A stretch of DNA of 64,000 nt from Sphingomonadales bacterium (GTDB lineage Bacteria; Pseudomonadota; Alphaproteobacteria; Sphingomonadales; Sphingomonadaceae). The notes beneath the pieces were generated by a model. The model had not been told where the DNA came from. It saw nothing but the letters and a program-made list of their open reading frames with translations, and did no database searches. This document shows positions 22,501 through 38,637 of the stretch, piece after piece; the first letter of the stretch is position 1, and the number at the start of each line of letters is the position of its first letter. Both the position numbers and the translations under genes were made by a program. Location: the NCBI GenBank assembly GCA_027491235.1, contig JAIXWO010000022.1, positions 780,102-844,101 of the forward strand. Direction: 5' to 3'.

Positions 22501-22512
22501 TAACAATTGTTA
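22501..22512. promoter_or_regulatory. MarR-type operator candidate (element A, copy 1)
   Basis: Perfect 12-bp palindrome TAACAATTGTTA, 21 bp upstream of the flavoprotein start. Identical to the copy at 30605 and close to those at 25230, 26582 and 38626. A MarR gene lies at 25362. Confidence 0.7.
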
Positions 22513-22564
22513 GCTATGCTTCTGACGGGTCAGACCCCTTCGGTCAAGGCTATCAGAGGCTGGA

Positions 22565-22599
22565 AAAGAAAAAAGGGGGCAGTCTTTCGACCACCCCCC
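22565..22599 (-). terminator. Intrinsic terminator of the TonB receptor gene
   Basis: On the minus strand a 10-bp stem (five G-C pairs, then TGGTC with GACTG) closes a GAAA tetraloop and is followed by six T. It lies 29 bp beyond the receptor stop codon. Confidence 0.85.
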
Positions 22600-22627
22600 A
22601 TTTCCAATTTTTTGGTCGCCTAGAAGC

Positions 22628-25183
22628 TTAGAAGTTCTTCTTGAGCGTGACCGCCCATTCACGCGGACGACCTGGGTTACCCAACACGCTGCCAGCCAGC
22701 GTGGAAAGGTCGAACTTCGACGGGAAGTAGTATTTGTCGAACAGGTTGGTGACTTCCAACGACACATTCAGATCGCTCGCTGCATTCTTCCATGTCAGAC
22801 GGGCGTTGGCGATTGTATAGCCTGGCACCTGTCCGAAGATTTCCGATGCGCTTCCAGCGGCCGGACGCAACACGTTGCCCGGCAGACGGTTCTGGCGGTT
22901 GACGTCGATGCGCGGCGTCAGCGTTCCAGTATCTCCAAGATCGGCTTCATACTGGGCGCCAACGTTCCACTGCCAACCCTGAGCAGGGTCGTTCAGAGCC
23001 GCGATCACTGTCGGATCGCTGGAGCAAACGCCCGCAGGGAGCGCAGAGCCAACCACCTGTGGGTCAACGCACTTGTAGGTGTACTTCAGATAAGAAGCCG
23101 AAGCATCAAGAGTGAAGCCCGCTGTTGGCTTAAAGAAGGCTTCAATTTCGATACCCTTTTGGGTTGCGTCACCGGCATTTTGCGGCAGAGCACAAGGGCC
23201 AGGGCCACCGAACTGCGGGCAGCTCAGCAAGGTGAGCTGAGCATCTTTCAGCTCGTTATAGAAACCCGTCACATTGAGGCGCAATTTGCGGTCAAACAGA
23301 TCCGTCTTGATGCCCAATTCGTAGGTGGTCACCGTTTCCGGGTCGAAGGAGCGCGCCTGATCAGCGTTGAACGGACGCGGATTGGCACCACCTGCCTTAT
23401 AACCGGTCGACGTTGTGGCGTAGACCAGAACTTCTGGCGAAATGCGGTAGTCAGCGGTCAAACGATAGTCCCAACGGCTACCGCGGAAGCTGGCGGTCCG
23501 TCCGGTAAGCGCTGTGACAATGTCCGCCGTCCCGGGCGCACCAAAGCGGTTCAACGTGTCCGGACCGCTATAGCCGGCACCATAAGCTCCACCGACACCA
23601 TCGACGAACGGGTTCACCGTCCGGCCGTCAAGGTTGTAGCGGAAGTAGGTGTAGTCCTTAGAGTCCTTCGTGTAGCGGAAGCCACCCGTGAAGGTGAGCG
23701 CATCCGTCGCTTCAAAGATTGCGGTACCAAAGACCGCTTTGGACTTGGTGCGGACAGGATCGTTACCGATGAACTGCAGCGGGAAGATCGGGCAGGTTGG
23801 CGTGTTCAGGCCACCGATTGCCGCACAAACGGCACCCGGCAGACCAGCCGAGACATAGCGGATATCCTGCAGCGTGTAGTACGTGGTCTTTTCATCCGAG
23901 TAATAGCCGCCAAGCGTAACCTGCAGCTGATCTGTGACCTGCGCGTTCAGGCGGACTTCCTGGCTCCAGAACCAGTGATCCAGCTTGTTGATGCCGATCT
24001 GCGTCCGGGCAGGCGACAAATCACCATCGGCTGTGAAGCTGTTCTTCCAGGCACGATAGGCTGTGATCGACTGAACATTAATGTCGTCACTGATCTTGTA
24101 GTTGACGTTGCCCGACAGGCCCCACCCTTCATATTCATTCTTCTGGTCACCGGTCACAGTTCCGAGCGGCAGACCGTTCAGGGGCGGAATAAGGCCAGCG
24201 ACAAAACCGCCACCAGACTGAGTTAGCGATGCGTAGTTACAGAAACGGCCGCACAGGAAACGGTTGTCAAACGGGGTTCCGTTGGTCGTGAACGTGTTCG
24301 GGTTTGCGTTGCCGCCATTCAGAAGGACTTCAGCACCGTTGTTCCGGCTGTCCTTGCTGTAATCAGCCGCAACGTTGATATCGAGCGCGTCATTCGGGTT
24401 GAACCGGAAGTTCGCTTTCAGCGCCTTATAACCGACATCGCCCTGCTTATAGAGGTTGCAGTTCGCCGCTCCGGCAACTGCAGGCACGCCGCTGGTCGGC
24501 ACGGCGCAGCCATAATCAATGACATCAACATATCCGCCCTGATCAGAAAACGTTCCGGACAGACGACCGAGTAGCGTGTCGGTCAGTTTAAAGTCGGCAC
24601 TCGCACGCAGGTTGATTCGGTTGCGGCTGCCATAAGTCGCCGACACATATCCGCCCTCACCCGTCAGTGGACGAGAGATGAACTTGATGGCGCCACCTTC
24701 AGAGTTACGCCCAGTCAGCGTCCCCTGCGGGCCACGCAGCACTTCGACGCGCTCAACATCGAGAAGGTCAAAGTTAGCACCCGTCAGACGGGGATAGTAG
24801 ACATCGTCAATGTACAGGCCGACACCGGGCTCAAGCGCCGGGTTGAAGTCGCCTTGGCCAAGGCCACGGATGCTTGCCGAAATGGAGTTACCGAAAGCCA
24901 CCGCGGCAGGACGCAACACGACACTCGGTGCGGCCTTCGTCACATCGGCAAGGTTGTTGGCACTGCGCGATTCAATCAACTTGGCATCAATCGCGGTGAT
25001 TGCGAGCGGCGTATCCTGCAGTTTCTGTTCGCGGAACTGGGCTGTGACGACAATCTCGCCATCATCTGTCGCCGTTTCAGCAGCTTGCTGGGCGAACGCT
25101 GGGGTTGCCAGAAGCGCAGCAACCGACGTCGATAACGTCAGAAATGTGCGCAGCGCGGAATCGTTACGGGAAGTCATAGCCAT
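22628..25183 (-). CDS. TonB-dependent outer-membrane receptor
   Basis: Receptor of 851 residues. Signal peptide ends at TPAFAQ, a TonB-box-like EIVVTA follows, then the plug domain with VEVLRGPQGTLTGRNSEGGA, then a long beta-barrel ending in the aromatic residue of LKKNF. It would carry a bulky aromatic compound across the outer membrane using TonB energy, as sphingomonad lignin-dimer receptors do; the ligand is not evident. ATG 25183 has AGGAGAGGA upstream; an ATG two codons later is possible. It is divergent from the MarR gene, and an element A palindrome lies 47 bp upstream. A strong terminator ends the unit, so it is probably transcribed alone. Confidence 0.92.
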   Translation of the reverse strand: MAMTSRNDSALRTFLTLSTSVAALLATPAFAQQAAETATDDGEIVVTAQFREQKLQDTPLAITAIDAKLIESRSANNLADVTKAAPSVVLRPAAVAFGNSISASIRGLGQGDFNPALEPGVGLYIDDVYYPRLTGANFDLLDVERVEVLRGPQGTLTGRNSEGGAIKFISRPLTGEGGYVSATYGSRNRINLRASADFKLTDTLLGRLSGTFSDQGGYVDVIDYGCAVPTSGVPAVAGAANCNLYKQGDVGYKALKANFRFNPNDALDINVAADYSKDSRNNGAEVLLNGGNANPNTFTTNGTPFDNRFLCGRFCNYASLTQSGGGFVAGLIPPLNGLPLGTVTGDQKNEYEGWGLSGNVNYKISDDINVQSITAYRAWKNSFTADGDLSPARTQIGINKLDHWFWSQEVRLNAQVTDQLQVTLGGYYSDEKTTYYTLQDIRYVSAGLPGAVCAAIGGLNTPTCPIFPLQFIGNDPVRTKSKAVFGTAIFEATDALTFTGGFRYTKDSKDYTYFRYNLDGRTVNPFVDGVGGAYGAGYSGPDTLNRFGAPGTADIVTALTGRTASFRGSRWDYRLTADYRISPEVLVYATTSTGYKAGGANPRPFNADQARSFDPETVTTYELGIKTDLFDRKLRLNVTGFYNELKDAQLTLLSCPQFGGPGPCALPQNAGDATQKGIEIEAFFKPTAGFTLDASASYLKYTYKCVDPQVVGSALPAGVCSSDPTVIAALNDPAQGWQWNVGAQYEADLGDTGTLTPRIDVNRQNRLPGNVLRPAAGSASEIFGQVPGYTIANARLTWKNAASDLNVSLEVTNLFDKYYFPSKFDLSTLAGSVLGNPGRPREWAVTLKKNF

Positions 25184-25229
25184 TCTCAGTCCTCTCCTGC
25201 TTGGGGCGCCGAACTGGATCCGGTCACCG

Positions 25230-25241
25230 TAACTATTGTTA
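25230..25241. promoter_or_regulatory. MarR-type operator candidate (element A, copy 2)
   Basis: TAACTATTGTTA, one base off the perfect palindrome, in the 178-bp gap between the TonB receptor and the MarR gene. It could control both. Confidence 0.6.
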
Positions 25242-25826: not shown

Positions 25827-25854
25827 GCCAACGCGCAGCGCCTTCTGCGACTTC

Positions 25855-26547
25855 TTAGCCCTGCTGCCCAGCGATCACGGCACCAAAGCGTGGATGGGCA
25901 AAGTGCATCGGCACATCATGGCGGTGCGGCCAGGTCTGCCGAATTTCATCGCTGCGGATGGTGTCCGGGCCAATCGGGTTGGCGGGGAAACACTCGGTGA
26001 GCGGCTGAAGGTGGGCAGTCGTCTTTGACCAACCGGCTTCGTAATCACCCTGCCACTGCATCATGTAATCCAGCCGCTTGATCTTCCACACGCCATCTTC
26101 CCGTACATAGTCATTTTCATAGATGCCTGCTTCCATGAACTGGAGTGGCAGGCCTTCAGGCTTGAACTCGCGGCTCTCATGGCTCCCGCCAAACAACATG
26201 CCCCGGAAGCGCCCCTTGGCGGTCTGCCGGTCTGGCGCGACGGTGATGATGTCCTGCATCTGGAAATGGTCGAGCAGAAAACCATAGGCCGGGCCTTCCT
26301 CGCCGGGTGCGAGGAACAGGCTCTTGAACCAAGTACCATAAAGGCGGCGGGCGCCTTCGCGGCCCTTATAGACCCCAGAGAGGAAGATGACCTCACCGTC
26401 CTCTGCAAAAAGCTCCGCCACGTCATCCGCGCGATTGAAATCGATATAATAGCCATAGGCCCAGTGGAGGCGGCGGATCGCGTTGATATCTTCCAGTTCG
26501 CCCACGCGGTTTTCCAACGCGGCCAGTCTCGAATTGACGTCGGACAT
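25855..26547 (-). CDS. NTF2-like (SnoaL fold) protein, copy B of three
   Basis: A 230-residue protein with the same layout as the copies at 4233 and 33726: N-terminal coil (SRLAALENRVGELEDI), then RRLHWAYGYYID, EVIFLSGVYKGREGARRLY, GFLLDHFQMQ and EAGIYENDY with DGVWKIKRLDY. The fold makes a deep cone-shaped pocket and often does acid-base chemistry without cofactor. It is divergent from an SDR-aldehyde dehydrogenase pair, with a palindrome between them. ATG 26547 follows GAGGAGAG. A formaldehyde lyase or related carbon-carbon lyase on a dimer is a reasonable guess by comparison with LdpA, but the active-site residues could not be aligned here. Confidence 0.8.
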   Translation of the reverse strand: MSDVNSRLAALENRVGELEDINAIRRLHWAYGYYIDFNRADDVAELFAEDGEVIFLSGVYKGREGARRLYGTWFKSLFLAPGEEGPAYGFLLDHFQMQDIITVAPDRQTAKGRFRGMLFGGSHESREFKPEGLPLQFMEAGIYENDYVREDGVWKIKRLDYMMQWQGDYEAGWSKTTAHLQPLTECFPANPIGPDTIRSDEIRQTWPHRHDVPMHFAHPRFGAVIAGQQG

Positions 26548-26581: not shown

Positions 26582-26593
26582 TAACGAATGTTA
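26582..26593. promoter_or_regulatory. MarR-type operator candidate (element A, copy 3)
   Basis: TAACGAATGTTA, with intact TAAC and GTTA arms, lies in the 70-bp gap between the divergent NTF2-like (26547) and SDR (26618) genes. An adjacent TTGTATGC resembles part of element B. Confidence 0.5.
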
Positions 26594-26617: not shown

Positions 26618-27520
26618 ATGAACTGGCAGGGCAAGACCGCCTTCATCACCGGCGGCGTATCAGGGATCGGCTTTGGCATCGCCCGCGCGTTTGCCGAAGC
26701 GGGCATGGACCTGATCCTGAGTTACCGGAATGAAGCCTACCGCGCCGATGCCGAAGCATGGTTTGTTCAAAATGAGCGCCCCCTCCCCCGTTTCGTGAAG
26801 CTCGATGTAACCGACCGTGCAGGCTTTGCAGCCGCCGCCGCAGAAGCAGGCAAGGTCCATGTGCTCGTCAACAATGCCGGTGTGAGCGTCTTTGGACCGA
26901 CCGATGAAGCAAGTTACGCGGACCATGACTGGATCATGGGCGTCAATTATGGCGGCGTGGTCAACGGCCTTGTGTCCTTCCTGCCCGGCATGAAGGCGCA
27001 TGGTGACGGCGGCCATGTCGTCAATGTCGCTTCGATGGCGGCCTATCTCTCCGGCCCGCAGGCGGGCATCTACACAGCGAGCAAGTTTGCTGTGCGTGGC
27101 CTAACGGAGTCGCTGCGTTACAACCTCGCGCCTCATGGCATTGGCGTGTCCCTCATGTGCCCCGGCCTCACCAAAACTAATGCTTGGGACTCGGCCCTGA
27201 AGCGTCCCGATGACTTTGCCGACACTGGCTTCAAACCAGCCGACAAGGAAGAGCTGGAGCAATTCGGCACGGCGTTCGATCTGGGGATGGACCCGCTGGA
27301 AGTGGGCCGCAAAACACTTGCCGGGATGACCGAGAACCGGGGGCTCATCCTGACGCACCCTGAGTTCGCAGAGGACTTTGAAGAGATTTACCGCACGTCG
27401 CTTGAGGCCCTTCCCAAGGAGCCTGTGCCGGAGGGACGTCTTCATATCGAAAAGCTGCGCCGTGACGCCAACCGCGCCGCAGCAGAAGGCAAAATGATCA
27501 ACCTTGGCGACCTGACCTGA
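26618..27520 (+). CDS. SDR oxidoreductase, LigD/LigL-like subgroup
   Basis: SDR of 300 residues resembling the two at 6584 and 7489. TGGVSGIGFGIA binds cofactor, NNAGVSV follows, catalytic residues are in SMAAYL and YTASK, and the tail has HPEFAEDF. This long-tail group includes the NAD+ enzymes that oxidise the benzylic alcohol of lignin dimers. ATG 26618 has GAGAGG upstream; a longer reading would run over the palindrome. The aldehyde dehydrogenase follows 13 bp later, so an alcohol or ketone and an aldehyde of one substrate are probably handled together. Confidence 0.83.
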   Translation: MNWQGKTAFITGGVSGIGFGIARAFAEAGMDLILSYRNEAYRADAEAWFVQNERPLPRFVKLDVTDRAGFAAAAAEAGKVHVLVNNAGVSVFGPTDEASYADHDWIMGVNYGGVVNGLVSFLPGMKAHGDGGHVVNVASMAAYLSGPQAGIYTASKFAVRGLTESLRYNLAPHGIGVSLMCPGLTKTNAWDSALKRPDDFADTGFKPADKEELEQFGTAFDLGMDPLEVGRKTLAGMTENRGLILTHPEFAEDFEEIYRTSLEALPKEPVPEGRLHIEKLRRDANRAAAEGKMINLGDLT

Positions 27521-27533
27521 GGAGAATGAAACT

Positions 27534-29003
27534 ATGACCCCGACCGGCGTAAATGTGGCCCATCCTGACAAGGTGTATATTGGCGGACAATGGCGCGAGG
27601 CCCATTCCGGCCGTTCCATCGAGATTGTCTCGCCCAATACCGAGCAGGTCGTGGCTGTCGTCGCGGAAGCCGATGAGGCAGATATGGACGCCGCCGTTGC
27701 CGCTGCACGCGATGCCTTTGACCATGGCCCATGGGTCGCACTCAGACCTGCCGAGCGCATCAGCTATCTCAAGCGGATGGCAGACCATCTGCGCGCGCGG
27801 GAAAGCGAAATCGCCAAGGCATGGACGGCCCAGATGGGTGGTCTCGCCAGCTTTGCCGGTCCGATGACGGGCGGATCGACGATGACGTTCGACAACATCA
27901 TCGCGATGGCCGAAAAATTCTCGTTCGTTGAACAACGCCCGACCATCGGTGCCGCTGTGGGCCTCGTCGCCTATGAACCCGTCGGCGTGGTTGCTGCCAT
28001 TGCCCCTTGGAACGGACCTTATGGCATCATGCTCAACAAGGTCGCCTATGCGCTCGCATCGGGCTGCACCGTCATCATGAAGCCCTCCCCTGAAACGCCG
28101 CTGGAAGCTTATATCATCGCCGAAGCTGCCGAGGCAGCTGGTGTGCCCGCCGGCGTCGTCAACCTTGTCTGCGGCCACCGCGAGGCGAGCGACCATCTCG
28201 TCTGCAATCACGGCGTTGATAAAGTCAGCTTCACGGGTTCAACGGTCGCCGGCAAACGCATCGCCAGCGTCTGTGGAGAACGGATCGCCCGCTGCACGCT
28301 CGAACTGGGCGGCAAGTCTGCGGCCATCATCGCTGATGACTTCCCGATCGAGGCAGCCGCTGGCCTGCTGACCGGCACGATCACGATGATGAGTGGACAG
28401 GTTTGCGCCATGCTCTCGCGCGTCATCGTCCCACGTAAACGGCATGATGAACTCGCCAGTGCCATTTCTGCGGAAATGAAAAAGGTCGTTGTCGGCTATT
28501 CGGACGATCCGACAACGCAACTTGGCCCGGTCGCCATGAAGCGCCAGTTGGAGCGCATCGAAATGTACATTGAAGAAGGCAAGAAGACCGCCGACCTCAT
28601 CACCGGTGGCGGTCGCCCGGCGCATCTCAATCGCGGCTACTTCATTGAACCGACCCTCTTCGCCAATGTGAAGAATGACAGCCGCATCGCGCAGGAAGAG
28701 ATCTTTGGCCCAGTGCTCAGCCTCATCCCTTGTGACGACGAGGAGGACGCCATCCGGATCGCCAACGACTCCAACTACGGCCTCAATGGCTCGGTCCTCA
28801 CCAATGACCATGAGCGGGCCTATCGTATCGCCCGCCGCGTCCGCACCGGCGGCTTTGGTCAGAACGGCCTGCGCATGGACTTTGGCCTGCCTTTTGGCGG
28901 GTTCAAGCAATCCGGCGTCGGTCGCGAGGGCGGGCTGGAAGGCATGATGAGTTATCTGGAGCTCAAAACCATCCTGCTCGACGGCCAGCCCGCCGCGCTA
29001 TAG
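27534..29003 (+). CDS. NAD-dependent aldehyde dehydrogenase
   Basis: Aldehyde dehydrogenase of 489 residues with APWNGPYGIMLNK in the cofactor region, FTGSTVAG, general base in LELGGKSAAI and nucleophile in SGQVCAMLSR, then EEIFGPVL and the C-terminal PFGGFKQSGVGRE. ATG 27534 is preceded by TGAGGAGAATG. It is co-transcribed with the SDR before it. The stop is the TAG at 29001-29003, which abuts the TAG of the opposing SDR gene within the palindrome CTATAG. Likely substrate is an aromatic or dimer aldehyde. Confidence 0.86.
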   Translation: MTPTGVNVAHPDKVYIGGQWREAHSGRSIEIVSPNTEQVVAVVAEADEADMDAAVAAARDAFDHGPWVALRPAERISYLKRMADHLRARESEIAKAWTAQMGGLASFAGPMTGGSTMTFDNIIAMAEKFSFVEQRPTIGAAVGLVAYEPVGVVAAIAPWNGPYGIMLNKVAYALASGCTVIMKPSPETPLEAYIIAEAAEAAGVPAGVVNLVCGHREASDHLVCNHGVDKVSFTGSTVAGKRIASVCGERIARCTLELGGKSAAIIADDFPIEAAAGLLTGTITMMSGQVCAMLSRVIVPRKRHDELASAISAEMKKVVVGYSDDPTTQLGPVAMKRQLERIEMYIEEGKKTADLITGGGRPAHLNRGYFIEPTLFANVKNDSRIAQEEIFGPVLSLIPCDDEEDAIRIANDSNYGLNGSVLTNDHERAYRIARRVRTGGFGQNGLRMDFGLPFGGFKQSGVGREGGLEGMMSYLELKTILLDGQPAAL

Positions 29004-29738
29004 CTCGATACAACCGCCATCGACGTAAAGGTCGACGCCGTTAATGAAGCTCGCTTCATCACTGGCGAGGAACAGGGCCGCGCGGGCAATCTCTTCGGAG
29101 GTGCCCATGCGGCCCATAGGCACCACGCCGGAAAGCAAATCGCGCATCGCCTGAATTTCTTCTGCCGACGCATCGCGCTTGAAGATTTCAGTATCCGTCG
29201 GGCCGGGACTGACCATGTTGACGCGAATGCGACGGGGCAAAAGCTCCTTGCCGACAATCCGTGCAACGGCCCGCAGGCCTGCCTTGGCCGCGGCATAAGC
29301 GACGTTGCCGGGGACGGCTGCGACTGACCCAATAGAGCCGGTCACCACCATGCTGCCCCCATCGCGCATCAGCGGAGCGGCCGCCTGAATCGCGAAAAAG
29401 GCGCCCTTTAGATTGACAGCATGGATGCCATCCCAAAAGTCTTCGGTGACATCAGGCACCATGGCAAAGCCGCCTATTCCTGCATTGACGAACAGCACGT
29501 CGATGCCGCCGAGATGATCTGCCGCCGCGGCAATGGCGTCACGGCTTTCGGTCAGCACACCCATGTCCGCGCGAATTGCATGCGCCCCTGTTTGGGCCGC
29601 GATGTCGCCGAGTGTCGCCTCGTTCCGACCGGTGATCACGAGCCGCGCGCCTTCATTGGCAAAAAGCTGCGCGGCGGCCGCACCAATCCCGGCGTTGCCG
29701 CCAAGGATCAGCACGGCTTTGCCCTCAAAACGACGCAT
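28998..29738 (-). CDS. SDR oxidoreductase
   Basis: Classical SDR of 246 residues. Cofactor loop LGGNAGIGAAAAQLF, VNAG in FVNAGIGG, catalytic residues in GSIGSV and YAAAK, and C-terminal VDGGCIEL. It belongs to the ordinary FabG-like group rather than the LigD group. ATG 29738 overlaps the stop of the small SnoaL-like gene upstream by one base, so three minus-strand genes (30585 to 28998) form one operon with the palindrome at 30605 ahead of it. Substrate unknown. Confidence 0.84.
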   Translation of the reverse strand: MRRFEGKAVLILGGNAGIGAAAAQLFANEGARLVITGRNEATLGDIAAQTGAHAIRADMGVLTESRDAIAAAADHLGGIDVLFVNAGIGGFAMVPDVTEDFWDGIHAVNLKGAFFAIQAAAPLMRDGGSMVVTGSIGSVAAVPGNVAYAAAKAGLRAVARIVGKELLPRRIRVNMVSPGPTDTEIFKRDASAEEIQAMRDLLSGVVPMGRMGTSEEIARAALFLASDEASFINGVDLYVDGGCIEL

Positions 29739-30184
29739 CAGAACATGCCGTTTTCATTGGCCGATTTTTCAGGGACGGGCTGGACAACATCCCAATGCTC
29801 GACAACCTTGCAGCCTTCGACGCGCACGATATCGACAACGGCGATACCCCGGTCGTCTGGCGCAAATTTGCCATGTGAATGCACCGCAACCAGATCACCG
29901 TCCGCGATGATCCGCTTGATGGCGTAGCTGATATGCGGATTGGATTTCATAAAAGGCTCTAGAAATGCAATCGCCGCATCCCGCCCGGTCGCTGCCATCG
30001 GATTGTGCTGAATGTAGCCGGGAACAACCCATTTTTCGAACGCAGCGCGCGGTTCCTTATCGATATAAAGCTGGGTCATGAACTTCGTCACGACCTCTTT
30101 GGGCTTCAGTCGGCATTTCGCTGCTTCTGCAGGCATAGAGGACAGCGCAAAAAGGCTGGCGGCAATCAACGCATAACGACGCAT
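29738..30184 (-). CDS. Exported small SnoaL-like protein
   Basis: A 148-residue protein with a signal peptide (MRRYALIAASLFALSSMPAEA) and a SnoaL-like domain: VPGYIQHNP, GRDAAIAFLEPF, RIIADGDLVAVHSH, VDIVRVEGCKVVEHWDVVQ. It is a paralogue of the next gene upstream, which has no signal; both end in a N-x-M-F tail. ATG 30184 follows AAAGGAGA. The fold is used by small isomerases, cyclases and hydratases. Being exported, it would act in the periplasm, where the PQQ and flavocytochrome dehydrogenases also work. Function unknown. Confidence 0.78.
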   Translation of the reverse strand: MRRYALIAASLFALSSMPAEAAKCRLKPKEVVTKFMTQLYIDKEPRAAFEKWVVPGYIQHNPMAATGRDAAIAFLEPFMKSNPHISYAIKRIIADGDLVAVHSHGKFAPDDRGIAVVDIVRVEGCKVVEHWDVVQPVPEKSANENGMF

Positions 30185-30195
30185 AACTGTCTCCT

Positions 30196-30604: not shown

Positions 30605-30616
30605 TAACAATTGTTA
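30605..30616. promoter_or_regulatory. MarR-type operator candidate (element A, copy 4)
   Basis: Perfect palindrome TAACAATTGTTA in the 75-bp gap between divergent operons starting at 30585 (-) and 30661 (+). One bound protein could shut both. Confidence 0.7.
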
Positions 30617-30660: not shown

Positions 30661-31518
30661 ATGAATCGCGACGCACTTTATGCCGTGCTGGCCAATTATC
30701 TTGAGGCGCTAAATGCCGGAGATGCCTCGCGGGTCAATTGGGCCGCTTCCCCTCTGAATTCTGAGAATAATGTGATGTTGGAGGTCGGTGACGGGCTCTG
30801 GGGCACGATTCTTCGCGTCGGCGACTATCAGCTGAAATTCGCCGATACGGCGACCAATCAGGTCGGCTATTTCGGCACCGTTCATGAGGCTATTGAGGAA
30901 TCAGCGTTCACGTTGCGGCTCAAGGTCAATGATCAAGGACAAGTCTGCGAATCTGAGATGGTTGTCGTCCGCCAGTCTGACTCAGGCATCAAATTTGAGA
31001 ATTGCCGCTATTGGGACAAACCGATCCTGAATGCGGACGTGGAGGCCCCCGTCTCCCGCGCGGAAATGGTCAAGCTGTCTGACGGCTATTTCGATACGCT
31101 TCAACTGAACGACGGGACAATCCACACCAAGTTCCACCCGGACTGCAACCGCGTTGAAAACGGCGTCCAGACAACGCGCAATCCCGAATTTGCCAAGATC
31201 GTACCTGTCTCTGCCTTGGGCTGCGAAGAGCAGTTCCGCATGGGCAATTACCGCTATGATGACCGGCTCCGCGCGCGGCGCTTCCCTATGGTGGATGAGG
31301 AACGCGGCCTCGTGCTCGCTTTTGGCTTTATCGACCATAGCGGACGGCTGGATGAGTATCAGTTGACCGACGGGCGCACCGTCAAATCCCCGGTCCGCCG
31401 CCCGCACAGTTTCTACATTTCAGAACTGTTCAAGATCGACCATGGCATGATCTGTCAGATCGAAGCGAACTTCATTACCGTGCCGTACAACATGCCAAGC
31501 CCGTGGGATGCCCTGTGA
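30661..31518 (+). CDS. Uncharacterised two-lobed protein, probably NTF2-related
   Basis: A 285-residue protein without signal peptide or membrane segment. The N-terminal half (LANYLEALNAGDASRV, GDGLWGTI, VGYFGTVHE) and the C-terminal half (YFDTLQLNDG, HPDCNRVENG, FGFIDHSG) each look like an NTF2-type unit in which a helix pair is followed by a curved sheet. Conserved-looking charged residues (HPDC, R, E) could line a pocket. ATG 30661 follows AGAGGATAG. First gene of the plus-strand operon with PQQ enzyme, NTF2-like, CmcJ-like and DUF3237 genes; its stop overlaps the next start. I do not recognise a function. Confidence 0.7.
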   Translation: MNRDALYAVLANYLEALNAGDASRVNWAASPLNSENNVMLEVGDGLWGTILRVGDYQLKFADTATNQVGYFGTVHEAIEESAFTLRLKVNDQGQVCESEMVVVRQSDSGIKFENCRYWDKPILNADVEAPVSRAEMVKLSDGYFDTLQLNDGTIHTKFHPDCNRVENGVQTTRNPEFAKIVPVSALGCEEQFRMGNYRYDDRLRARRFPMVDEERGLVLAFGFIDHSGRLDEYQLTDGRTVKSPVRRPHSFYISELFKIDHGMICQIEANFITVPYNMPSPWDAL

Positions 31519-33704
31519 GAAACTTTGCTGCTGCCTTTGCCCTGATCCTGTCCGCCTGCGCGTCTGACCGCACACCTGATGCCCCTGCCCAGCAATCTTC
31601 AGCGGGGGATAACTGGACCAACCCCGGCGGGGACGCGGGCAAAACCCATTATTCCACGCTGACGGACATGAACCCGACCAATGTCGGCAAGCTCGGTCTG
31701 GCGTGGGAGGTGAACCTTGGCACCAACCGCGTGCTGGAGGCGACCCCAGTCGTGATCGACGGCGTAATGTACACATCGGGCGTGGCAGGGCGCGCCTATG
31801 CCTTTGACGCCGCGACCGGAAAGGAAATCTGGCGGTTCGAGCCCGAGGTCGACATGCAAGTGAACCGCACCGTCTGCTGCGACATGGCCAATCGCGGCGT
31901 CGCCGTTGCGCGCGGCAAGGTCTATGTCGCTACGCTCGATGCTCAGCTTTATGCGCTCGATGCAAAGACCGGCAAAGTCCTGTGGAAGGCCGATACCGTC
32001 GATGACAAGACGCGCGGCGTGAACTCCACCGGTGCGCCGGAAGTCGCGGGCAATGTCGTCGTCATCGGCAATGGCGGGGCGGAATATGATACGCGCGGCT
32101 ATGTCAGCGCGTTCGATCTCGACAGCGGCAAGCTGGTCTGGCGCTTCCATACCGTCCCCCGTGATCCGGCTCTTGGAGCGCAGGACCACCCCGATCTTGA
32201 AGAGGCTGTCAAAACCTGGGACCCCAAAAGCCGCTGGGATATTGGCGGTGGCGGCACCCCCTGGGATGCGATCAACTATGACCCCGAAACCGGCAATGTC
32301 ATTATCGGGACCGGCAATGGTGGCCCCTATCATACCATCAAGCGCAGCCCGAAAGGCGGCGACCAGCTCTATCTCGCAAGCCTCGTTGCGCTCGATGCAA
32401 AGACGGGCCGCAAGAAGTGGCATTACCAACAGACACCCGGCGATAACTGGGACTTCACCTCCACCCAGCCGATAATCCTGACGAACATGAAGATCGACGG
32501 CGCAGACCGTCCGGTCCTCATCCATGCGCCGAAAAATGGGTATCTCTACATTTTGGACCGGCGGGATGGAAAACTGCTTCGCGCCAACCCCATCGTGCGG
32601 GTCAATTGGGCGGATGGCATTGATGCGAAGACCGGGCGGCCACTTTTGCGGCCCGACCGCGCCGACTATGCGACATCGCCCAAGATCGTCTTCCCCGGCA
32701 CCACGGGGGCACGCAACTGGCATCCCGCGACCTATGATCCTCAAACGGGGCTCTATTACGCCTCGGTGCTCGATATGGGGAACCTCATCTATCAAACGCC
32801 CGGTGCCAAACCGATGCGCAAGAAGATGCTCAATGTGGATGCTGCCCTCGTCTTCACATCTGTTCTGAAAGATGCCCTGCCCGCTATGCCCCCGCCGGTT
32901 CAGGCGGCCGTGACATCGCTGCCCGAATGGCCCGAAGTGTTGAAGAACCCCGGCAAGGGCGAACTCCGCGCCATTGACCCGCTGACCGGCAAGACGAAAT
33001 GGGCGGTCCCCGCCGATGGCTGGCAGGACCGCGCGGGCACGCTCACAACCGCGGGTGGCCTTCTGTTCCACGGCAATATCGCAGGCCAGCTGCGTGTGTT
33101 CGACAAGGCGACCGGCAAGCTTTTGAAGAGTATCGACACCGGCTCTTCCATCCTTGCAGCCCCCATGACCTACCGGGTCAAAGGCGTGCAATATGTGGCG
33201 GTGATGGCGGCATGGGGCGGTGGCGGCTATGCCTATGTCCCGCCCTATTCCGCGGCCTATAAGCGCGGCAATCAGGGTCGGCTGCTTGTCTTCAAATTGG
33301 GTGGCAGCACCGTGCCTCTTCCGCCAGAGCTTCCCAAATTGGATGTCGCACCGGAACCTCCGGCCCAAGCCGCGGGCGTAACACCGGCCACCATTGCGCA
33401 GGGGCAGCAGCTGTTCTTTGCCAATTGTGTGATGTGCCATGCCAACCAGCACCGTTCCATTACACCTGATCTGCGGCGGATGCAGCCGGGAACGCATCAG
33501 GCGTTCAGCAAGATCGTGCTGGAAGGACTACTCCTCCAAAACGGCATGCCCCGCTGGGACGACGTTCTAAAGCCGCAAGAGGTGGCTGCCATCCATGCAT
33601 GGCTGATCGACGAACAGCGCAAAACAAGAGCGGATGAATTGGAAAAGCAAAAGCGCGGCATCCCACTGGACGCGCCGAGCCTCGCCATTTTGTCGAACTA
33701 CTGA
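31515..33704 (+). CDS. PQQ-dependent quinohemoprotein dehydrogenase (lipoprotein)
   Basis: Second quinohemoprotein of the window, 729 residues. A lipoprotein signal ends at LILSAC, followed by NWTNPGGDAGKTHYSTL opening the propeller, the vicinal cysteines in RTVCCDMANRG, WDFTSTQP, and a C-terminal cytochrome c domain with CVMCH. It would oxidise an alcohol in the periplasm with PQQ and pass electrons via its heme. The start is the GTG at 31515 that overlaps the upstream TGA and gives a clean signal peptide; a GTG at 31503 is less convincing. It is the second gene of the five-gene operon, so the alcohol probably belongs to that unknown pathway. Confidence 0.9.
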   Translation: MRNFAAAFALILSACASDRTPDAPAQQSSAGDNWTNPGGDAGKTHYSTLTDMNPTNVGKLGLAWEVNLGTNRVLEATPVVIDGVMYTSGVAGRAYAFDAATGKEIWRFEPEVDMQVNRTVCCDMANRGVAVARGKVYVATLDAQLYALDAKTGKVLWKADTVDDKTRGVNSTGAPEVAGNVVVIGNGGAEYDTRGYVSAFDLDSGKLVWRFHTVPRDPALGAQDHPDLEEAVKTWDPKSRWDIGGGGTPWDAINYDPETGNVIIGTGNGGPYHTIKRSPKGGDQLYLASLVALDAKTGRKKWHYQQTPGDNWDFTSTQPIILTNMKIDGADRPVLIHAPKNGYLYILDRRDGKLLRANPIVRVNWADGIDAKTGRPLLRPDRADYATSPKIVFPGTTGARNWHPATYDPQTGLYYASVLDMGNLIYQTPGAKPMRKKMLNVDAALVFTSVLKDALPAMPPPVQAAVTSLPEWPEVLKNPGKGELRAIDPLTGKTKWAVPADGWQDRAGTLTTAGGLLFHGNIAGQLRVFDKATGKLLKSIDTGSSILAAPMTYRVKGVQYVAVMAAWGGGGYAYVPPYSAAYKRGNQGRLLVFKLGGSTVPLPPELPKLDVAPEPPAQAAGVTPATIAQGQQLFFANCVMCHANQHRSITPDLRRMQPGTHQAFSKIVLEGLLLQNGMPRWDDVLKPQEVAAIHAWLIDEQRKTRADELEKQKRGIPLDAPSLAILSNY

Positions 33705-33725: not shown

Positions 33726-34436
33726 ATGACCGATATTGCGACCCTCGCCGCCCGCCTTGACAAGGTCGAGCATGAACTGGGCATCCAGCAGGACATTCAT
33801 CAGATCCGTCGCATCCAGTACACCTATGGCTATCTGATCGACAAATCGCAGTATAACGAAGTCGCCGACCTGTTCTCCGATGAAGGCGAAGTCTGGTTCC
33901 TCGGCGGCATCTACAAGAAAAAGGCCGGCGTCCGTCGTCTGTATATTGAGCGGTTCCAGACCAACTTCACCCAAGGTCATAATGGCCCGCGCTATGGCTG
34001 GCTGCTCGATCACCCGCAGATGCAGATGGTGATCGACGTCGCGCCAGACCGCAGCCATGCCAAGGTCCGCGGCCGCTCTATGATGCAAGCAGGTCTCCAT
34101 GAAACCGCCGAAGGTGCGCAGCGCGCCTGGTGGGAAGGCGGCATTTACGAAAACGAATATGTCCGCGAAGACGGCATCTGGAAGATCAAGGCGCTGCGCT
34201 ACTTCCCCTTCTGGCACGGCAGCTTTGAAGACGGATGGGCCAAAACACCGATCGATTACATCCCCATGTCCAAGACGTGCTTCCCGGAAGATCCGCTTGG
34301 CCCCGATGAATTGATTTCCCCCGCCCCGCGCCTGTGGCCCGCCACAGACACAATCGAATTCCACTATCCGCACCCGGTGACCGGCAAGCCCATCGTCGTG
34401 GACAATAGCCGCGCCCGGGAGGGGTTTCGTGACTGA
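33726..34436 (+). CDS. NTF2-like (SnoaL fold) protein, copy C of three
   Basis: A 236-residue protein with N-terminal coil (TLAARLDKVEHELGIQQDI), YGYLIDKSQ, EVWFLGGIYKKKAGVRRLY, GWLLDHPQMQ and EGGIYENEY with DGIWKIKALRY. It is nearest to copy A at 4233: both have RLYIERFQxNFTxG and HPVTGxPIV near the end. ATG 33726 follows AAGGGAGAG, 21 bp after the PQQ gene. It lies opposite the operon with a lignostilbene-dioxygenase-type enzyme, the step that follows formaldehyde loss by LdpA in diarylpropane breakdown, which makes a lyase role attractive. No catalytic proof from sequence. Confidence 0.8.
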   Translation: MTDIATLAARLDKVEHELGIQQDIHQIRRIQYTYGYLIDKSQYNEVADLFSDEGEVWFLGGIYKKKAGVRRLYIERFQTNFTQGHNGPRYGWLLDHPQMQMVIDVAPDRSHAKVRGRSMMQAGLHETAEGAQRAWWEGGIYENEYVREDGIWKIKALRYFPFWHGSFEDGWAKTPIDYIPMSKTCFPEDPLGPDELISPAPRLWPATDTIEFHYPHPVTGKPIVVDNSRAREGFRD

Positions 34437-35301
34437 TCTGCAGACACTCGACCGCGTGCCCGGTGTGGATGCAAAGATGGATTATCTCTTGCCCACATCC
34501 ACAATCAACCGTCGGTTCTGGGCGCCGGGTAAAGAGTATAATACCGGCGTCTATGAGACCTATGGCGTCCATATCCGCAATGCGCGGTTGGCACCGGAGC
34601 CGTTCACGCTCGACACGCATGGCTTTGCGATTGCCAGTTTTCCGACTGCCATCACTGACTGGGATACTGCTGCCGCCGGAGATTCGGACTATGCCGCCGA
34701 GGTCATCGAAATCGTCAAGCGGCTGACCGGTGCGGACACCGTGCTCACCATGTCGGGCCAGCTCCGGACGTCGGGAGCGACTGGCGAAAAGCTCCAGCCG
34801 CCCGCCGCCGAAGCGCATGTCGATTTCACGCCCGATTGCGCGGACCGCGTTGCGGCGCGCGTTTACGAAGGCAAGATGCCGGGTGGCCCTGGCTATGACC
34901 GCTACATCTGCTTCAGCCTCTGGCGTCCGCTGTCTCCACCACCACAGGATTGGCCGCTGGCGCTGTGCGATTTCCGCAGCGTGTCCGAACAGGAAGGCAC
35001 GCCCAACACCAAGGTCGATGTCGACGAAATCCCCGAAGGTGATGCGCTGTTCGCCGAAATCCCCGGCGAAGACCAAATGGCGGCGGCCAGCATCTTCACC
35101 TTCAATCCCGATCACCGCTGGTGGTATTTCCCGGACATGACCGATGATGAGGTCATCCTGATCAAGTTCCATGACAGCGACCACAGCCGCGCCTGGCGCG
35201 CGCTCCACACCGCCTTCCACGACACCAGCCGCCCGGACGCCAATGAACGCCATTCAATGGAGTTTCGCGGCGTCGCCTATTTCAGCAAGAAAGACGCCTG
35301 A
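34429..35301 (+). CDS. CmcJ/NvfI-like putative oxygenase or hydroxylase, copy 1
   Basis: A 290-residue protein of the CmcJ/NvfI/AsaB-like family. Shared features with the copy at 38653 are YGVHIRNAR with TLDTHGF, the AEAHVDFTPD segment (His-x-Asp), FSLWRPLSPPPQDWPLALCDFRSV, and FNPDHRWWYFPDM. His-x-Asp with a distal His (HRW) would fit an iron facial triad, a suggestion only. GTG 34429 overlaps the previous gene and has CGGGAGGGG five bases ahead, so that start is well supported. Known relatives act in fungal and streptomycete secondary metabolism; a role in aromatic breakdown is not described to my knowledge. Confidence 0.75.
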   Translation: MTDLQTLDRVPGVDAKMDYLLPTSTINRRFWAPGKEYNTGVYETYGVHIRNARLAPEPFTLDTHGFAIASFPTAITDWDTAAAGDSDYAAEVIEIVKRLTGADTVLTMSGQLRTSGATGEKLQPPAAEAHVDFTPDCADRVAARVYEGKMPGGPGYDRYICFSLWRPLSPPPQDWPLALCDFRSVSEQEGTPNTKVDVDEIPEGDALFAEIPGEDQMAAASIFTFNPDHRWWYFPDMTDDEVILIKFHDSDHSRAWRALHTAFHDTSRPDANERHSMEFRGVAYFSKKDA

Positions 35302-35795
35302 TGTATTCGACACTCGAAACACCGCATCTCGAATTCGCGTTCGAGTGTCGGCTGCAATTCACACGGGTCTATTCCATTCCCGATGTCCACAATGGCGGCT
35401 TCCGATCCGCCGTTCTCGTCGATCAGGGGACGTTTGAAGGCCCGCGCCTCGGGGGCAAGGCCGTCCCCAACTCAGGCGGGGACTATGCCCATTTCCGCGA
35501 CGACGACACGGCGGTGTTCGATGCGCGCTATCTGCTCGAGGTCGATGACGGCACGATCATCTACATGCAGAACAAGGGCTATCTGTGGGGCCGCAAGCCC
35601 GACGCGATGCAGCGGCTGCGCGCCTGGGCCTTCGAGGACGGACCTCCCGTCGCCCATGAAGACTATTATCTGCGTGCCCAACCGACCTTCGAAACGCCCA
35701 AGGGCAAGCATGACTGGATGACACGGCACGTCTTCATCGGTGTCGGGGAACGCCGCCCCGATGGGAATTTCGTCCGCTATTTCGCGCTGACTTAG
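35301..35795 (+). CDS. DUF3237 domain protein
   Basis: A 164-residue protein covered by one DUF3237-type domain: LEFAFECRLQFT, HNGGFRSAVLVDQGTFEGPRLGG, NSGGDYAHFRDDDTAVFDARYLLEVDDGTIIYMQNKGYLWG, ending HVFIGVGERRPDGNFVRYFAL. It is a likely beta-barrel protein without cofactor motif. From memory, the stereospecific decarboxylases PhcF and PhcG in phenylcoumaran-dimer catabolism of SYK-6 were reported as DUF3237 proteins; if right, this gene could do a similar decarboxylation. The ATG shares one base with the upstream stop (TGATG). Last gene of the operon, overlapping a converging gene by 4 bp. Confidence 0.78.
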   Translation: MYSTLETPHLEFAFECRLQFTRVYSIPDVHNGGFRSAVLVDQGTFEGPRLGGKAVPNSGGDYAHFRDDDTAVFDARYLLEVDDGTIIYMQNKGYLWGRKPDAMQRLRAWAFEDGPPVAHEDYYLRAQPTFETPKGKHDWMTRHVFIGVGERRPDGNFVRYFALT

Positions 35796-36205
35796 GTGCC
35801 CGACGGCTCGGGGGGCATCAGCGCGCATTCCGTCTGCACGATTTTGCCGGCCTTGGTTGTGTAAAAGATGAACTGCCGCATTTCGATGATCTGGCCTGCT
35901 TCCATGGGGTGGAAGGCACTGGCGCCGTTGGTATCGAGCGCGTCCTGCGTAAGATCTCGGATGGCCTCGATGCGGACGATAGCATCCACAGCCGTCAGCG
36001 TGTCACTCGCAGCAAAATTGAGGACCCGCACGCTCTCCTTCACATAGCTGTGCAGGAAGGTGTAAAAGCGGGTGAGGTCTTCGCGGCTCCGAATGGAGAC
36101 GCCGAAGAAATCCATCTTCATCGGTTCGGCATAGAAATCGGCGACGCCGTCATAATCCTTGCTGTTGAAGCAAGCGAGATACCGTTCATAGGCATCCCGG
36201 TTCAT
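35792..36205 (-). CDS. Small NTF2/SnoaL-like protein
   Basis: A 137-residue protein with the SnoaL pattern YERYLACFNSKDYDGVADFYAEPMKMDFFG, followed by SREDLTRFYTFLHSYV and the sheet IIEMRQFIFYTTKAGKIVQTECAL. Not closely related to copies A-C. ATG 36205 overlaps the stop of the NmrA-type reductase gene (ATGA). Last gene of the minus-strand operon that starts with the carotenoid oxygenase. Function unknown; could be an isomerase, hydratase or ligand-binding protein. Confidence 0.77.
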   Translation of the reverse strand: MNRDAYERYLACFNSKDYDGVADFYAEPMKMDFFGVSIRSREDLTRFYTFLHSYVKESVRVLNFAASDTLTAVDAIVRIEAIRDLTQDALDTNGASAFHPMEAGQIIEMRQFIFYTTKAGKIVQTECALMPPEPSGT

Positions 36206-37125
36206 TGGGCAGCGCTCCGGAGAAATTCCACATTCTCCTCAATCATCTGCCGCACAGAACGCGCCGGGCGTCCGGTTAGGCGCTCCACATCCTTCGTGCA
36301 GACCTCCAGAAACCCTTCCCGGATGGCCTGCCCAAACGTCACCATGTCATCGCTGTTCCAAGGGAGACCGCCCACCGTCTGGTCATCTACCGGACGGCGT
36401 GGAATGCCCATGGCGTCGAACATTGCATATTGCTGGTCATCATCGACGGAGACATAGCTGATCGGCTTGCCTGTCACCTCGGAGAGGATAACTGTCACCT
36501 CTTCAAAGGTCTGCAATTCAGGACCTGTGATGTTGTAGGTCTGACCCTCATGGCCATCACTCGTCATGACAGCGACGGCGGCAGCAACACAGTCATCGCG
36601 CCATACCATTGCCTCAAGGCCTGAGCCTGCGTTGCTAATCCATTGGCCGGACTGCATGACGCCGGGGCCAGCCATCAGGATCATCGCATCGGCATAATGC
36701 GCATCGCGTAGCATCGTCCAGGCCATGCCAGAGGCGCGGATGAGCTGCTCTGTCTCAATGTGGTCATGCCGCACTTCTGCCGGGTTTGCGGGATCATCAA
36801 TGCCGATGAAGCTGGTATAAGCGATGTGCTTCACACCCGCTTTTGCCGCCGCATCAATCGCCGCCTTGTGCTGAACAACGCGTGCACCCACCCGGGTGCC
36901 GGAAATGAGCAGCATCTTATCTGCCCCCGTTACCGCAGCGGCCAGCGTCTCTGGCTTGTCGAAGTCGCCGTAACGGACCTCGCACCCCTGCGCGACGCGA
37001 TCTGTCAGCTTAGCCGGCGTGCGCGTGATCAGGATCAAATCCTGTGCACGTCCCTTGGCGATCAGCGCGTCTGTAAAGGCGCGTCCATAGTTGCCCGACG
37101 CACCTGTGACGACAATCCGGGTCAT
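36202..37125 (-). CDS. NmrA/QOR2-type NAD(P)-binding reductase
   Basis: Atypical SDR of 307 residues in the NmrA/quinone-reductase-2 group. VTGASGNYGRAF is the nucleotide loop; YGDFDKPETLAAAVTGADKMLLISG and YTSFIGID follow, and the active tyrosine of classical SDRs is missing, as usual for the group. ATG 37125 overlaps the stop of the carotenoid oxygenase gene. Enzymes of this group reduce quinones or phenylcoumaran-type rings; plant phenylcoumaran benzylic ether reductases are distant relatives, which is worth noting here but not evidence of that activity. Confidence 0.82.
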   Translation of the reverse strand: MTRIVVTGASGNYGRAFTDALIAKGRAQDLILITRTPAKLTDRVAQGCEVRYGDFDKPETLAAAVTGADKMLLISGTRVGARVVQHKAAIDAAAKAGVKHIAYTSFIGIDDPANPAEVRHDHIETEQLIRASGMAWTMLRDAHYADAMILMAGPGVMQSGQWISNAGSGLEAMVWRDDCVAAAVAVMTSDGHEGQTYNITGPELQTFEEVTVILSEVTGKPISYVSVDDDQQYAMFDAMGIPRRPVDDQTVGGLPWNSDDMVTFGQAIREGFLEVCTKDVERLTGRPARSVRQMIEENVEFLRSAAQ

Positions 37126-38591
37126 GCGACGGCCTTTGCGAGTTGATCGCTGCTCACCCACCAGCCATGCACTTGTGGTCGCAGGCGCGTAGGGATCGCA
37201 ATCTTGGCGACAGGCCCGGCGCCTACATTCCCCGCGTCGACAATCCAGCAAGCATGGGTGAAGTCATCTGGCCCCGTCTGTGTATCGACGATCATCACCA
37301 GCCAGCCTTCATGGTCTTCGGTCTTGGACGGCACATGGACCGGCTCATTGAAGCTCATGCCCGGATCAAGCGCGAGGGCCTGAATGGAGGCACCGGTGAA
37401 GTCGAGCCGCATCAGCAAGTTGAACATCGCGCCGACAGGGCCACCCGCCACCGGAGGCCCACGCATTTCAGGGTTCATCGTCAGCATCCAGCCACGCGCA
37501 TAGGGCCGCCCCTGCTCCGCTGCCGGAATGACCGGGAAGTCACCCGGCGGGCCGACAATATTCTCTACCACGTCACCGGAGGGGGCCTTGGGATTAACCG
37601 TCCAGCGCGTCAGGGCACCTTTCACATCCCAAGGCGCGATGTGAATTCCAGAGGCTTCGCGGATGAAGGGAAAGGCGTTCACGTTCGACAGGCACTGGTC
37701 AAAGTGGATGTTGCCCTCCGCATCCTCAAACGCACCCATCATGTGGTAGCAGGACACACCCTTCCCGCCCTTGAACCACTTGATCTCTGACACATCGCCA
37801 TAGCGCGGCATGACGCCGAGCCAACTGTCGAGATCCATTTCATGGATCCAATGGTCGCCGCCTTCTTTCAGACGATCCAGACTGCAGGTCGTCGGGTAGA
37901 CCGGGAACAGCGCGTAATTCTCAGTGATGGTGAAGTCATGCATCATGGAGCAATAGGGCACGTCAAACCATTGTTCCGACGTCAGATTGCCGTCCTTATC
38001 CGCGATCATGTACGCAACCTTGGTCGAGGCCGGTCCATCCGCCTCATAGCCATAGAAGAACATTTCGCCCGTCACTGGATCGATGCGGACGTGCGCCGTC
38101 ACCGTTTCGGATTTCAGCTTTCCGCCAAAATCATAGGAACCAATTGTTTTCAGCGTTTGCGGATCAATCTGGTAAGGACGTCCATCCTCCTTCGTCATCA
38201 AAAGGCGGCCGGCGTGCCAAACGGGGGTCGTGTTGGCGACGGTGCGATCCACACCTGCCATATCCGCATCATCCGTGAAGGGATTGCGATACCGCCCAAA
38301 GCGCGTGCGATCCACCTCAACTTCTGCCTTGTGGCGCGCCGTCTGCACATAGCGGATCGACGTGCTGGCCTTCCCCCCTTGAAGGCGGACGGCGGAAATC
38401 ATCCCATCGCCGGACAAAACGTTGTCATCATCAAATTTGGGCGGAAAAGCAGGATCCGGAACCGCGCGGAAGAACACGCCGTCGACATCTGCGGGGATTT
38501 CACCCTCGACCACCAAATTATCGAGGTCATATTCCGCGCCAATTGGGCGATTGAGACCCATGAAATGGGGTGATTGGGGAAATGCGGCCAC
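37122..38591 (-). CDS. Carotenoid oxygenase family, lignostilbene dioxygenase type
   Basis: Iron oxygenase of 489 residues, near the 485 of lignostilbene dioxygenase LsdA. Four putative iron histidines lie in TAHVRID, MMHDFTI, CYHMMGAF and QVHGWWV. EPVHVPSKTEDHEGWL is also typical. The family cleaves the central double bond of 4-hydroxystilbenes, giving two aromatic aldehydes such as vanillin. The start is GTG 38591 with AGGAGAG seven bases upstream, and an element A palindrome lies 34 bp upstream. The substrate-contacting tyrosine and lysine known in LsdA should be checked by alignment. A true carotenoid cleavage role is less likely in this context. Confidence 0.85.
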   Translation of the reverse strand: MAAFPQSPHFMGLNRPIGAEYDLDNLVVEGEIPADVDGVFFRAVPDPAFPPKFDDDNVLSGDGMISAVRLQGGKASTSIRYVQTARHKAEVEVDRTRFGRYRNPFTDDADMAGVDRTVANTTPVWHAGRLLMTKEDGRPYQIDPQTLKTIGSYDFGGKLKSETVTAHVRIDPVTGEMFFYGYEADGPASTKVAYMIADKDGNLTSEQWFDVPYCSMMHDFTITENYALFPVYPTTCSLDRLKEGGDHWIHEMDLDSWLGVMPRYGDVSEIKWFKGGKGVSCYHMMGAFEDAEGNIHFDQCLSNVNAFPFIREASGIHIAPWDVKGALTRWTVNPKAPSGDVVENIVGPPGDFPVIPAAEQGRPYARGWMLTMNPEMRGPPVAGGPVGAMFNLLMRLDFTGASIQALALDPGMSFNEPVHVPSKTEDHEGWLVMIVDTQTGPDDFTHACWIVDAGNVGAGPVAKIAIPTRLRPQVHGWWVSSDQLAKAVA

Positions 38592-38625
38592 GGTACTCTC
38601 CTAAATCTTATCAGAGCACCTTCGA

Positions 38626-38637
38626 TAACATTTGTTA
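38626..38637. promoter_or_regulatory. MarR-type operator candidate (element A, copy 5)
   Basis: TAACATTTGTTA: arms TAACA and TGTTA around two bases, 34 bp upstream of the carotenoid oxygenase GTG. It separates that gene from the CmcJ-like gene upstream and may mark a promoter. Confidence 0.6.

Follow-up and report, generated by a model that had tools for sequence, protein, structure and literature searches.

A strict 12-bp palindrome links a MarR-family gene to a predicted regulon for two-ring lignin or lignan units in a Sphingomonadales genome

The DNA analysed here, called the window, is a stretch of 64,000 nucleotides from a Sphingomonadales bacterium (contig JAIXWO010000022.1, positions 780,102 to 844,101). 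Some 16 kb of it carry catabolic genes, a gene for a MarR-family regulator and five copies of a 12-bp palindrome, the predicted operators (Table 1). A preliminary description of this DNA had placed palindromes at 22501, 25230, 26582, 30605 and 38626; all five lie exactly there, and the observation is confirmed. Relative to TAACAATTGTTA, the copies at 22501 and 30605 are perfect, those at 25230 and 38626 have one mismatch and that at 26582 has two. The half-sites TAAC and GTTA are intact in all five, variation being confined to the centre. Seven gene starts lie 20–47 bp from a site, in keeping with the spacing of 19–50 bp claimed earlier; the marR start, at 121 bp, does not fit that range.

In our best reading, the five sites could serve eight units including marR, comprising 18–21 genes. 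The preliminary description had counted some 20 genes, among them a flavocytochrome/glutathione S-transferase/PQQ (pyrroloquinoline quinone) operon. Eighteen genes, marR included, are well placed, and the flavocytochrome pair does follow a site. The two glutathione S-transferase genes and one PQQ-dependent dehydrogenase are of uncertain membership, because 369 bp separate the end of the cytochrome gene (20486) from their block (20116). A predicted operator heads each unit encoding enzymes of the pin-, LdpA- and NOV2-like kinds. The PinZ-like gene begins with an ATG that shares bases with the stop codon ending the dioxygenase gene (ATGA), a translational-coupling arrangement; comparisons among relatives used 37110 instead of 37125 as its start.

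Table 1. Predicted operators and genes of the cluster, in window coordinates (VAO, vanillyl-alcohol oxidase; PCMH, p-cresol methylhydroxylase; SDR, short-chain dehydrogenase; ALDH, aldehyde dehydrogenase)
Feature	Position	Strand	Basis or remark
PQQ-dependent alcohol dehydrogenase with cytochrome domain	16396..18501	-	TIGR03075, 650 bits (cut-off 480); membership uncertain
Two glutathione S-transferase genes	18526..20116	-	PF02798; operon membership uncertain
Cytochrome c, PinV-like	20486..20947	-	PF13442; open reading frame (ORF) overlaps the flavoprotein gene
VAO/PCMH-type flavoprotein, PinW-like	20902..22479	-	PF01565; eugenol oxidase, VAO and p-cresol methylhydroxylase structures, E 1e-90 to 1e-122
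Predicted operator 1, TAACAATTGTTA	22501..22512		22 bp before flavoprotein gene, flavocytochrome operon
TonB-dependent receptor, candidate dimer importer	22628..25183	-	PF00593, PF07715 (on longer reading 22628-25285)
Predicted operator 2, TAACTATTGTTA	25230..25241		47 bp to TonB receptor, 121 bp to marR start
MarR-family regulator, 154 aa	25362..25826	+	PF12802, 31.2 bits (cut-off 27); PF01047, 26.8 (24.6)
LdpA-like gamma-formaldehyde lyase (NTF2/SnoaL_4)	25855..26547	-	PF13577; PDB 8abt, E 8e-107
Predicted operator 3, TAACGAATGTTA	26582..26593		Between divergent LdpA-like (35 bp) and SDR-ALDH (25 bp) units
Short-chain dehydrogenase	26618..27520	+	PF00106
Aldehyde dehydrogenase	27534..29003	+	PF00171
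SnoaL, SnoaL-like and SDR genes, single unit	28998..30585	-	PF07366, PF12680, PF13561
Predicted operator 4, TAACAATTGTTA	30605..30616		Between divergent SnoaL-SDR (20 bp) and 285-aa/PQQ/CmcJ/DUF3237 (45 bp) units
285-aa conserved protein	30661..31518	+	Directly after a site in 11/33 regions, window included
PQQ-dependent alcohol dehydrogenase with cytochrome domain	31503..33704	+	TIGR03075, 530 bits (cut-off 480)
SnoaL_4 protein	33726..34436	+	PF13577
CmcJ/NvfI-family oxidoreductase	34429..35301	+	NF041278, 252 bits (cut-off 80)
DUF3237 protein, domain of PinX decarboxylase	35301..35795	+	PF11578
SnoaL_2 protein	35792..36205	-	PF12680
NmrA-type reductase, PinZ-like	36202..37125	-	PF13460, PF05368 (on longer reading 36202-37251)
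Lignostilbene alpha,beta-dioxygenase, NOV2/LsdA type	37122..38591	-	NF053780, 868 bits (equivalog cut-off 650)
Predicted operator 5, TAACATTTGTTA	38626..38637		35 bp before dioxygenase-PinZ unit

The genome uses this palindrome almost only in the cluster. At up to two mismatches the 64-kb window holds seven matches, against 0.53 expected from shuffled sequences. Across the home genome (3,391,886 bases in 29 contigs), all four places with at most one mismatch to TAACAATTGTTA fall inside the 16-kb cluster. Five of the six places in the genome with the strict form TAACN4GTTA lie in the cluster, and about 21 would be expected genome-wide from base composition alone; the same half-sites at control spacings of 2, 3, 5 and 6 occur at 16 places in the genome and at none in the cluster. 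Given six genome sites, the probability that at least four of the five others land in the same 16 kb is about 2.6e-9. The preliminary description had held that its regulon would fall if the motif were common elsewhere in the genome; the whole-genome scan did not find it so. The sixth site (C26:14060) has the centre TGCC. No ORF around it exceeds 140 aa, and one, of 81 aa, begins some 70 bp off; the 3.1 kb examined there showed no homologue of any cluster gene. Of the two further two-mismatch matches in the window, at 52867 and 56986, the former lies 37 bp ahead of the earliest start codon that a second TonB receptor ORF (50593-52830) could use; we rejected it as a site, as it is conserved just in the near-identical genome G228 and absent from the equivalent promoter of G050.

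The operators are conserved in relatives and persist inside promoter flanks that have diverged. Both half-sites of operator 1 are preserved in G228, G050, G185, G319 and G195, and those of operators 3 and 4 in G228, G050, G185 and G002, with one mismatch at operator 3 in G319. MarR homologues (E 1e-12) were found in 46 of 397 genomes of the family, and the 30 best-scoring loci were examined over 3.4 kb each (2.0 kb for one). At the last 15 of these (L034-L048), which are distant (33–39% identity), TAACN4GTTA is present in 13, each time 25–242 bp upstream of marR. Regions around MarR were fetched for 23 of the 46 MarR-bearing genomes, namely all 16 best-scoring (down to G034) and seven others; second MarR copies were included for G380, G075, G111 and G270, and that of G117 was left out. 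This G117 copy has a site 1.8 kb away. Of the 107 sites counted genome-wide in the 16 best-scoring genomes, 42 fall within the fetched MarR regions, with about 1.3 expected; in G050 all five do, and in G265, G117 and G034 none does. For all 23 genomes the count is 67 of 206 against 1.9 expected; it depends partly on choice, because the seven further genomes (G014, G103, G144, G147, G165, G316 and G396) were picked after a site had been seen near MarR, and the counts of 42/107 and 13/15 are independent of them. Rows in these comparisons are not independent (G228, whose MarR is 98% identical to that of the home genome G000, is near-identical to it, and G228 and L017 are probably one genome), and the P values given here ignore kinship.

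The sites also keep their place before genes. In 30 regions, counting the window itself and two plasmids and dropping three G265 regions that had been picked by their sites, 71 of 75 sites precede a cluster-gene homologue by at most 260 bp, compared with 12.1% of random positions; for 12 control palindromes the figure is 20 of 53. Over 33 regions, in which those of G265 are kept, the genes headed by a site are the dioxygenase (20), the flavoprotein (12), marR (11), the 285-aa protein gene (11), the small SnoaL gene (10) and the PinZ-like gene (9). Plasmids of Sphingobium sp. V4 and Novosphingobium sp. RL4 carry sites around MarR genes at 36–37% identity; around the MarR gene at 32% on a Novosphingobium sp. 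PP1Y plasmid there are none. In G265, sites lie upstream of two dioxygenase-like genes (37–38%), which sit on two contigs, and on a third contig upstream of genes for a flavoprotein and for a TonB receptor (L081, L082, L083); the regulon there may be scattered and enlarged. A search among plasmids for a named pin cluster led to an N. capsulatum record (H7), which was rejected: it holds a different dioxygenase cluster, with no sites in the 41 kb taken.

The cluster dioxygenase and MarR travel together. At E 1e-150 or better, 46 of the 397 family genomes contain the dioxygenase, and MarR is present in 44 of these 46 (hypergeometric P 1.5e-53). Thirty of the 53 listed copies were compared at their promoters, a copy counting as MarR-linked if within 30 kb of MarR: TAACN4GTTA lies at most 300 bp upstream in 21 of 25 linked copies and in one of five unlinked ones (Fisher 0.011). 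The copy in G076, which lacks MarR, has no site upstream, and that in G371 (a genome 87% complete) has a one-mismatch site.

The regulator gene itself encodes a MarR winged-helix domain scoring above the curated Pfam cut-offs. The home genome holds no second relative at E<=1e-12, the sole match being the protein itself, and among 385 genomes sampled across the class only three have a match at E 1e-15, the home genome and two of the same family. The 35 MarR proteins placed in a tree fall into clade 1 (15) and clade 2 (20) with 100/99 support, long branches being flagged. At the 15 clade-1 loci, the 300 bp upstream of marR contain an exact site in three, a one-mismatch site in eight and none in four; an exact or one-mismatch match occurs in 4.8% of random 300-bp windows. 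Operator 2 thus probably places marR under its own product, and a weak own operator would fit such autoregulation. In the MarR family an operator upstream of the regulator's gene is common, though not universal.

The two clades differ both in protein and in site. We placed the presumed recognition helix by aligning the proteins to known members of the MarR family and from general knowledge of that family. It starts with MN in 14 of 15 clade-1 proteins (MG in G025) and with MS in 19 of 20 clade-2 proteins (MN in G034). The inner operator position is A in 50, G in 10 and T in 6 of 66 half-sites in clade-1 regions, and G in 63 and A in 21 of 84 in clade-2 regions; the Fisher value for A versus G between clades, 2.8e-12, rests on related rows and double-counted palindromes and is no true probability. 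G380 carries both clades: one MarR region has TAACAATTGTTA, the other two copies of TAACGATCGTTA and one of TAACGTTCGTTA. We tentatively propose, as an idea less probable than the regulon itself, that two paralogous MarR proteins split control of parallel lignin-dimer clusters across the family by an inner-base code (usually A.T with Asn, usually G.C with Ser), the clade-1 regulator sensing an uncharged lignan, or a stilbene-type product of it, and also opening a dedicated TonB importer, even though publications point to passive entry. Discrimination at the inner base could let both paralogues operate in one cell, as in G380.

Taken together, the sites, their placement and confinement, their linkage to MarR and to the operons, and their conservation, all read from the DNA, support the MarR regulon of the preliminary description. 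We infer that a MarR dimer represses a five-palindrome regulon for the breakdown of two-ring lignin or lignan units and is released by the dimer or its product, a reading to which we give a probability of roughly 0.8. In the absence of inducer, the MarR dimer (25362-25826) would bind TAACNNNNGTTA, with A/T-rich centres here, at the five places and, sitting 20–47 bp from the start codons, would block transcription. The two operators between divergent units would each close two promoters, and that between the receptor and marR perhaps likewise. The genes so controlled would provide uptake and side-chain cleavage of two-ring units, whose products, monomers of the vanillin type, would feed the adjoining protocatechuate 4,5-cleavage genes. 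A dimer, perhaps entering by the TonB receptor, or a stilbene or diene intermediate would then bind MarR and free the operators, including that of marR. The identity of the ligand is the least certain step.

Several points weigh against this reading, and some of them lend themselves to other explanations. Binding of MarR to the palindrome and its release by a ligand are our deduction, and the proposed ligand comes from gene content only. The PinX, PinW, PinV and PinZ labels follow family and gene order. A promoter scan found no consensus sigma-70 promoter overlapping any site, the nearest promoter-like match (25328-25299, minus strand) lying 57 bp beyond the site at 25230; overlap of operator and promoter is thus suggested by distance alone. 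Of the 15 clade-1 loci, four have no operator before marR itself and eight of the other 11 have an imperfect one; four of 25 MarR-linked dioxygenase genes have no upstream site; G265, G117 and G034 show no enrichment of sites near MarR and G361 little (P 0.09). Some control palindromes also prefer promoters, ACATN4ATGT doing so in 8/10 cases. Seven of the 30 regions chosen by MarR hold no exact site (G117, with 4.8 kb only, G265, the clade-1 regions of G075 and G270, G034, G111b and PP1Y), the first four having one-mismatch sites. At up to two mismatches, the genome holds 24 matches against 41 for the reversed control.

The last count would suit palindromes that are mere repeats or chance AT-rich sequence. 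It makes two-mismatch matches uninformative by themselves, so that the signal resides in the strict form, and we rejected such matches elsewhere in the genome as regulon members; genome confinement, placement before starts, conservation within diverged promoters and the weaker performance of the 12 control palindromes leave this explanation very little probability. A regulator encoded elsewhere might instead bind TAACN4GTTA, marR being a mere neighbour, and the seven MarR regions devoid of an exact site speak for this. Yet the site accompanies the MarR lineage in many genera and lies just upstream of distant marR genes, the inner base of the site varies with MarR clade, and no other DNA-binding domain was matched among the cluster genes scanned (16396-45685), a PcaQ-like LysR gene (45710-46870) lying outside the five sites; we consider this improbable. 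Some MarR proteins activate, and a MarR protein that binds here as an activator, or works jointly with the PcaQ-like LysR, is a slightly stronger contender, if still an unlikely one. The sites stand 20–47 bp from start codons, the usual place of a repressor operator. The sphingomonad MarR proteins compared below (DesR, DdvR and Saro_0803) all repress, in the parts of the papers available to us.

Returning to the proposed repressed regulon, the likeliest substrate is a lignin or lignan unit of two rings with a beta-beta or beta-1 linkage, because enzymes of the pin-, LdpA- and NOV2-like kinds are present, each of their units headed by a predicted operator. The phenolic dimer guessed at in the preliminary description agrees with this, as the enzymes resemble published beta-1 and beta-beta pathways. 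For the LdpA-like protein, the matching PDB entries are 8abt-8abw (E 1e-101 to 1e-107), which are labelled just 'SnoaL-like'; we take them to be LdpA. No Pfam, NCBIfam or PDB match was found for the 285-aa protein, and a structure prediction from the one sequence was unusable (pLDDT 35). It is 51–99% identical in 15 other loci, with many invariant residues. Between the window and G228 the TonB receptors share 62% identity, against 88–99% for other cluster genes; the receptor may be a fast-changing surface protein within a conserved cluster. A terminator-like hairpin (22599-22574) follows the receptor gene; the promoter and terminator scan of the cluster gave no more matches than shuffled sequence.

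Other genes of related kinds occur in the same genome. A second lignostilbene dioxygenase (C16:188505-189965, L125), 60% identical to that of the cluster, adjoins a PinZ-like reductase (30%); the 7 kb taken there hold no TAAC...GTTA site, even at one mismatch. Within the window, a methylenetetrahydrofolate reductase-type gene followed by one for a GcvT-type aminomethyltransferase (8813-11183) is presumably a pair of the kind used in vanillate O-demethylation; no motif match was found in this segment. Genes for an FAD oxidase, an aldehyde dehydrogenase, a SnoaL_4 protein and a major facilitator superfamily transporter form one run (1221-6411) that resembles a second dimer cluster, again with no motif match. 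For the LysR gene named above, the best model is PcaQ, which fits residues 84–384 with a score under its cut-off, and residues 7–81 are covered by further LysR models; the protein possibly carries two tandem DNA-binding domains.

The beta-1 and beta-beta dimer pathways are known enzyme by enzyme, and an operator with a candidate regulator would add a layer of control. The list of co-controlled genes offers a route to missing steps (the 285-aa protein, the CmcJ, SnoaL and PQQ genes) and to an importer, the motif can serve as a search tool that marks the same operons in other genera, and the operator/MarR pair is a possible biosensor part for lignans.

Comparison with known systems, made from the parts of the cited papers available to us, finds relatives for both the regulator and the enzymes. 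The N. rhizosphaerae LY pin cluster and the window share a coupled dioxygenase/PinZ pair, a flavoprotein with a cytochrome c (overlapping genes of the VAO/PCMH type in the window) and a DUF3237 protein, a likeness by family and order. The dioxygenase gene of LY is pinU, with pinZ translationally coupled to it; PinX contains a DUF3237 domain and is similar to PhcG/PhcF (PMC12607616), and the flavocytochrome PinVW belongs to the cresol dehydrogenase family (PMC12997858). The LY pathway further includes a lariciresinol oxidase, PinY. None of the putative transporters affected fitness in LY (PMC12607616, PMC12997858), whereas the TonB receptor of the window carries an operator. Transporters have not been implicated for these dimers (PMC12997858) and pinoresinol may enter by diffusion (PMC12607616), reports that speak against the need for a TonB receptor but not against its control. 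The word 'MarR' is absent from the texts of both papers, and their available passages name no regulator of pin genes. In N. aromaticivorans, LdpA of the beta-1 pathway produces a stilbene that LsdA, also known as NOV2, then cleaves (PMC11323797); an LdpA-like lyase and a NOV2-type dioxygenase both belong to the window's predicted regulon, and neither text on this pathway mentions MarR (PMC11323797, PMC12997858). The main texts of open-licence papers contain none of the strings TAACAATTGTTA, TAACGATCGTTA and TAACNNNNGTTA, and in the parts of that literature available to us no regulator of the genes of these pathways was found; supplements were excluded from both searches.

As with the window, N. 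aromaticivorans has a MarR-like regulator, Saro_0803, beside a stilbene dioxygenase gene, nov1, and its binding is weakened by the stilbene resveratrol; its reported operator, GCAATA...TATTGC at one promoter (PMC10046596), sets it apart from TAACN4GTTA at five places over 16 kb. DdvR of Sphingobium SYK-6 is, as proposed for the window MarR, a repressor of this family over a TonB-dependent importer and lignin-dimer catabolic genes (ddvT-ligXa), but its substrate is the 5-5 dimer DDVA and the enzymes are others (PMC6874591). DesR of the same strain is a MarR protein that does what is proposed for the window MarR, repressing several promoters and its own gene; its operators IR-B GTTTGTGTCACATAC, IR-M GTTTGTGTAACATAC and IR-R GTATGCTACGCTTAC differ from TAACN4GTTA, and its ligands are the monomers vanillate and syringate, unlike the proposed dimer (PMC6888825). 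MarR repressors of stilbene, 5-5 dimer and monomer genes are thus already known in sphingomonads, and the regulon proposed here, itself well supported, would be a further one, with a possible split between two paralogues.

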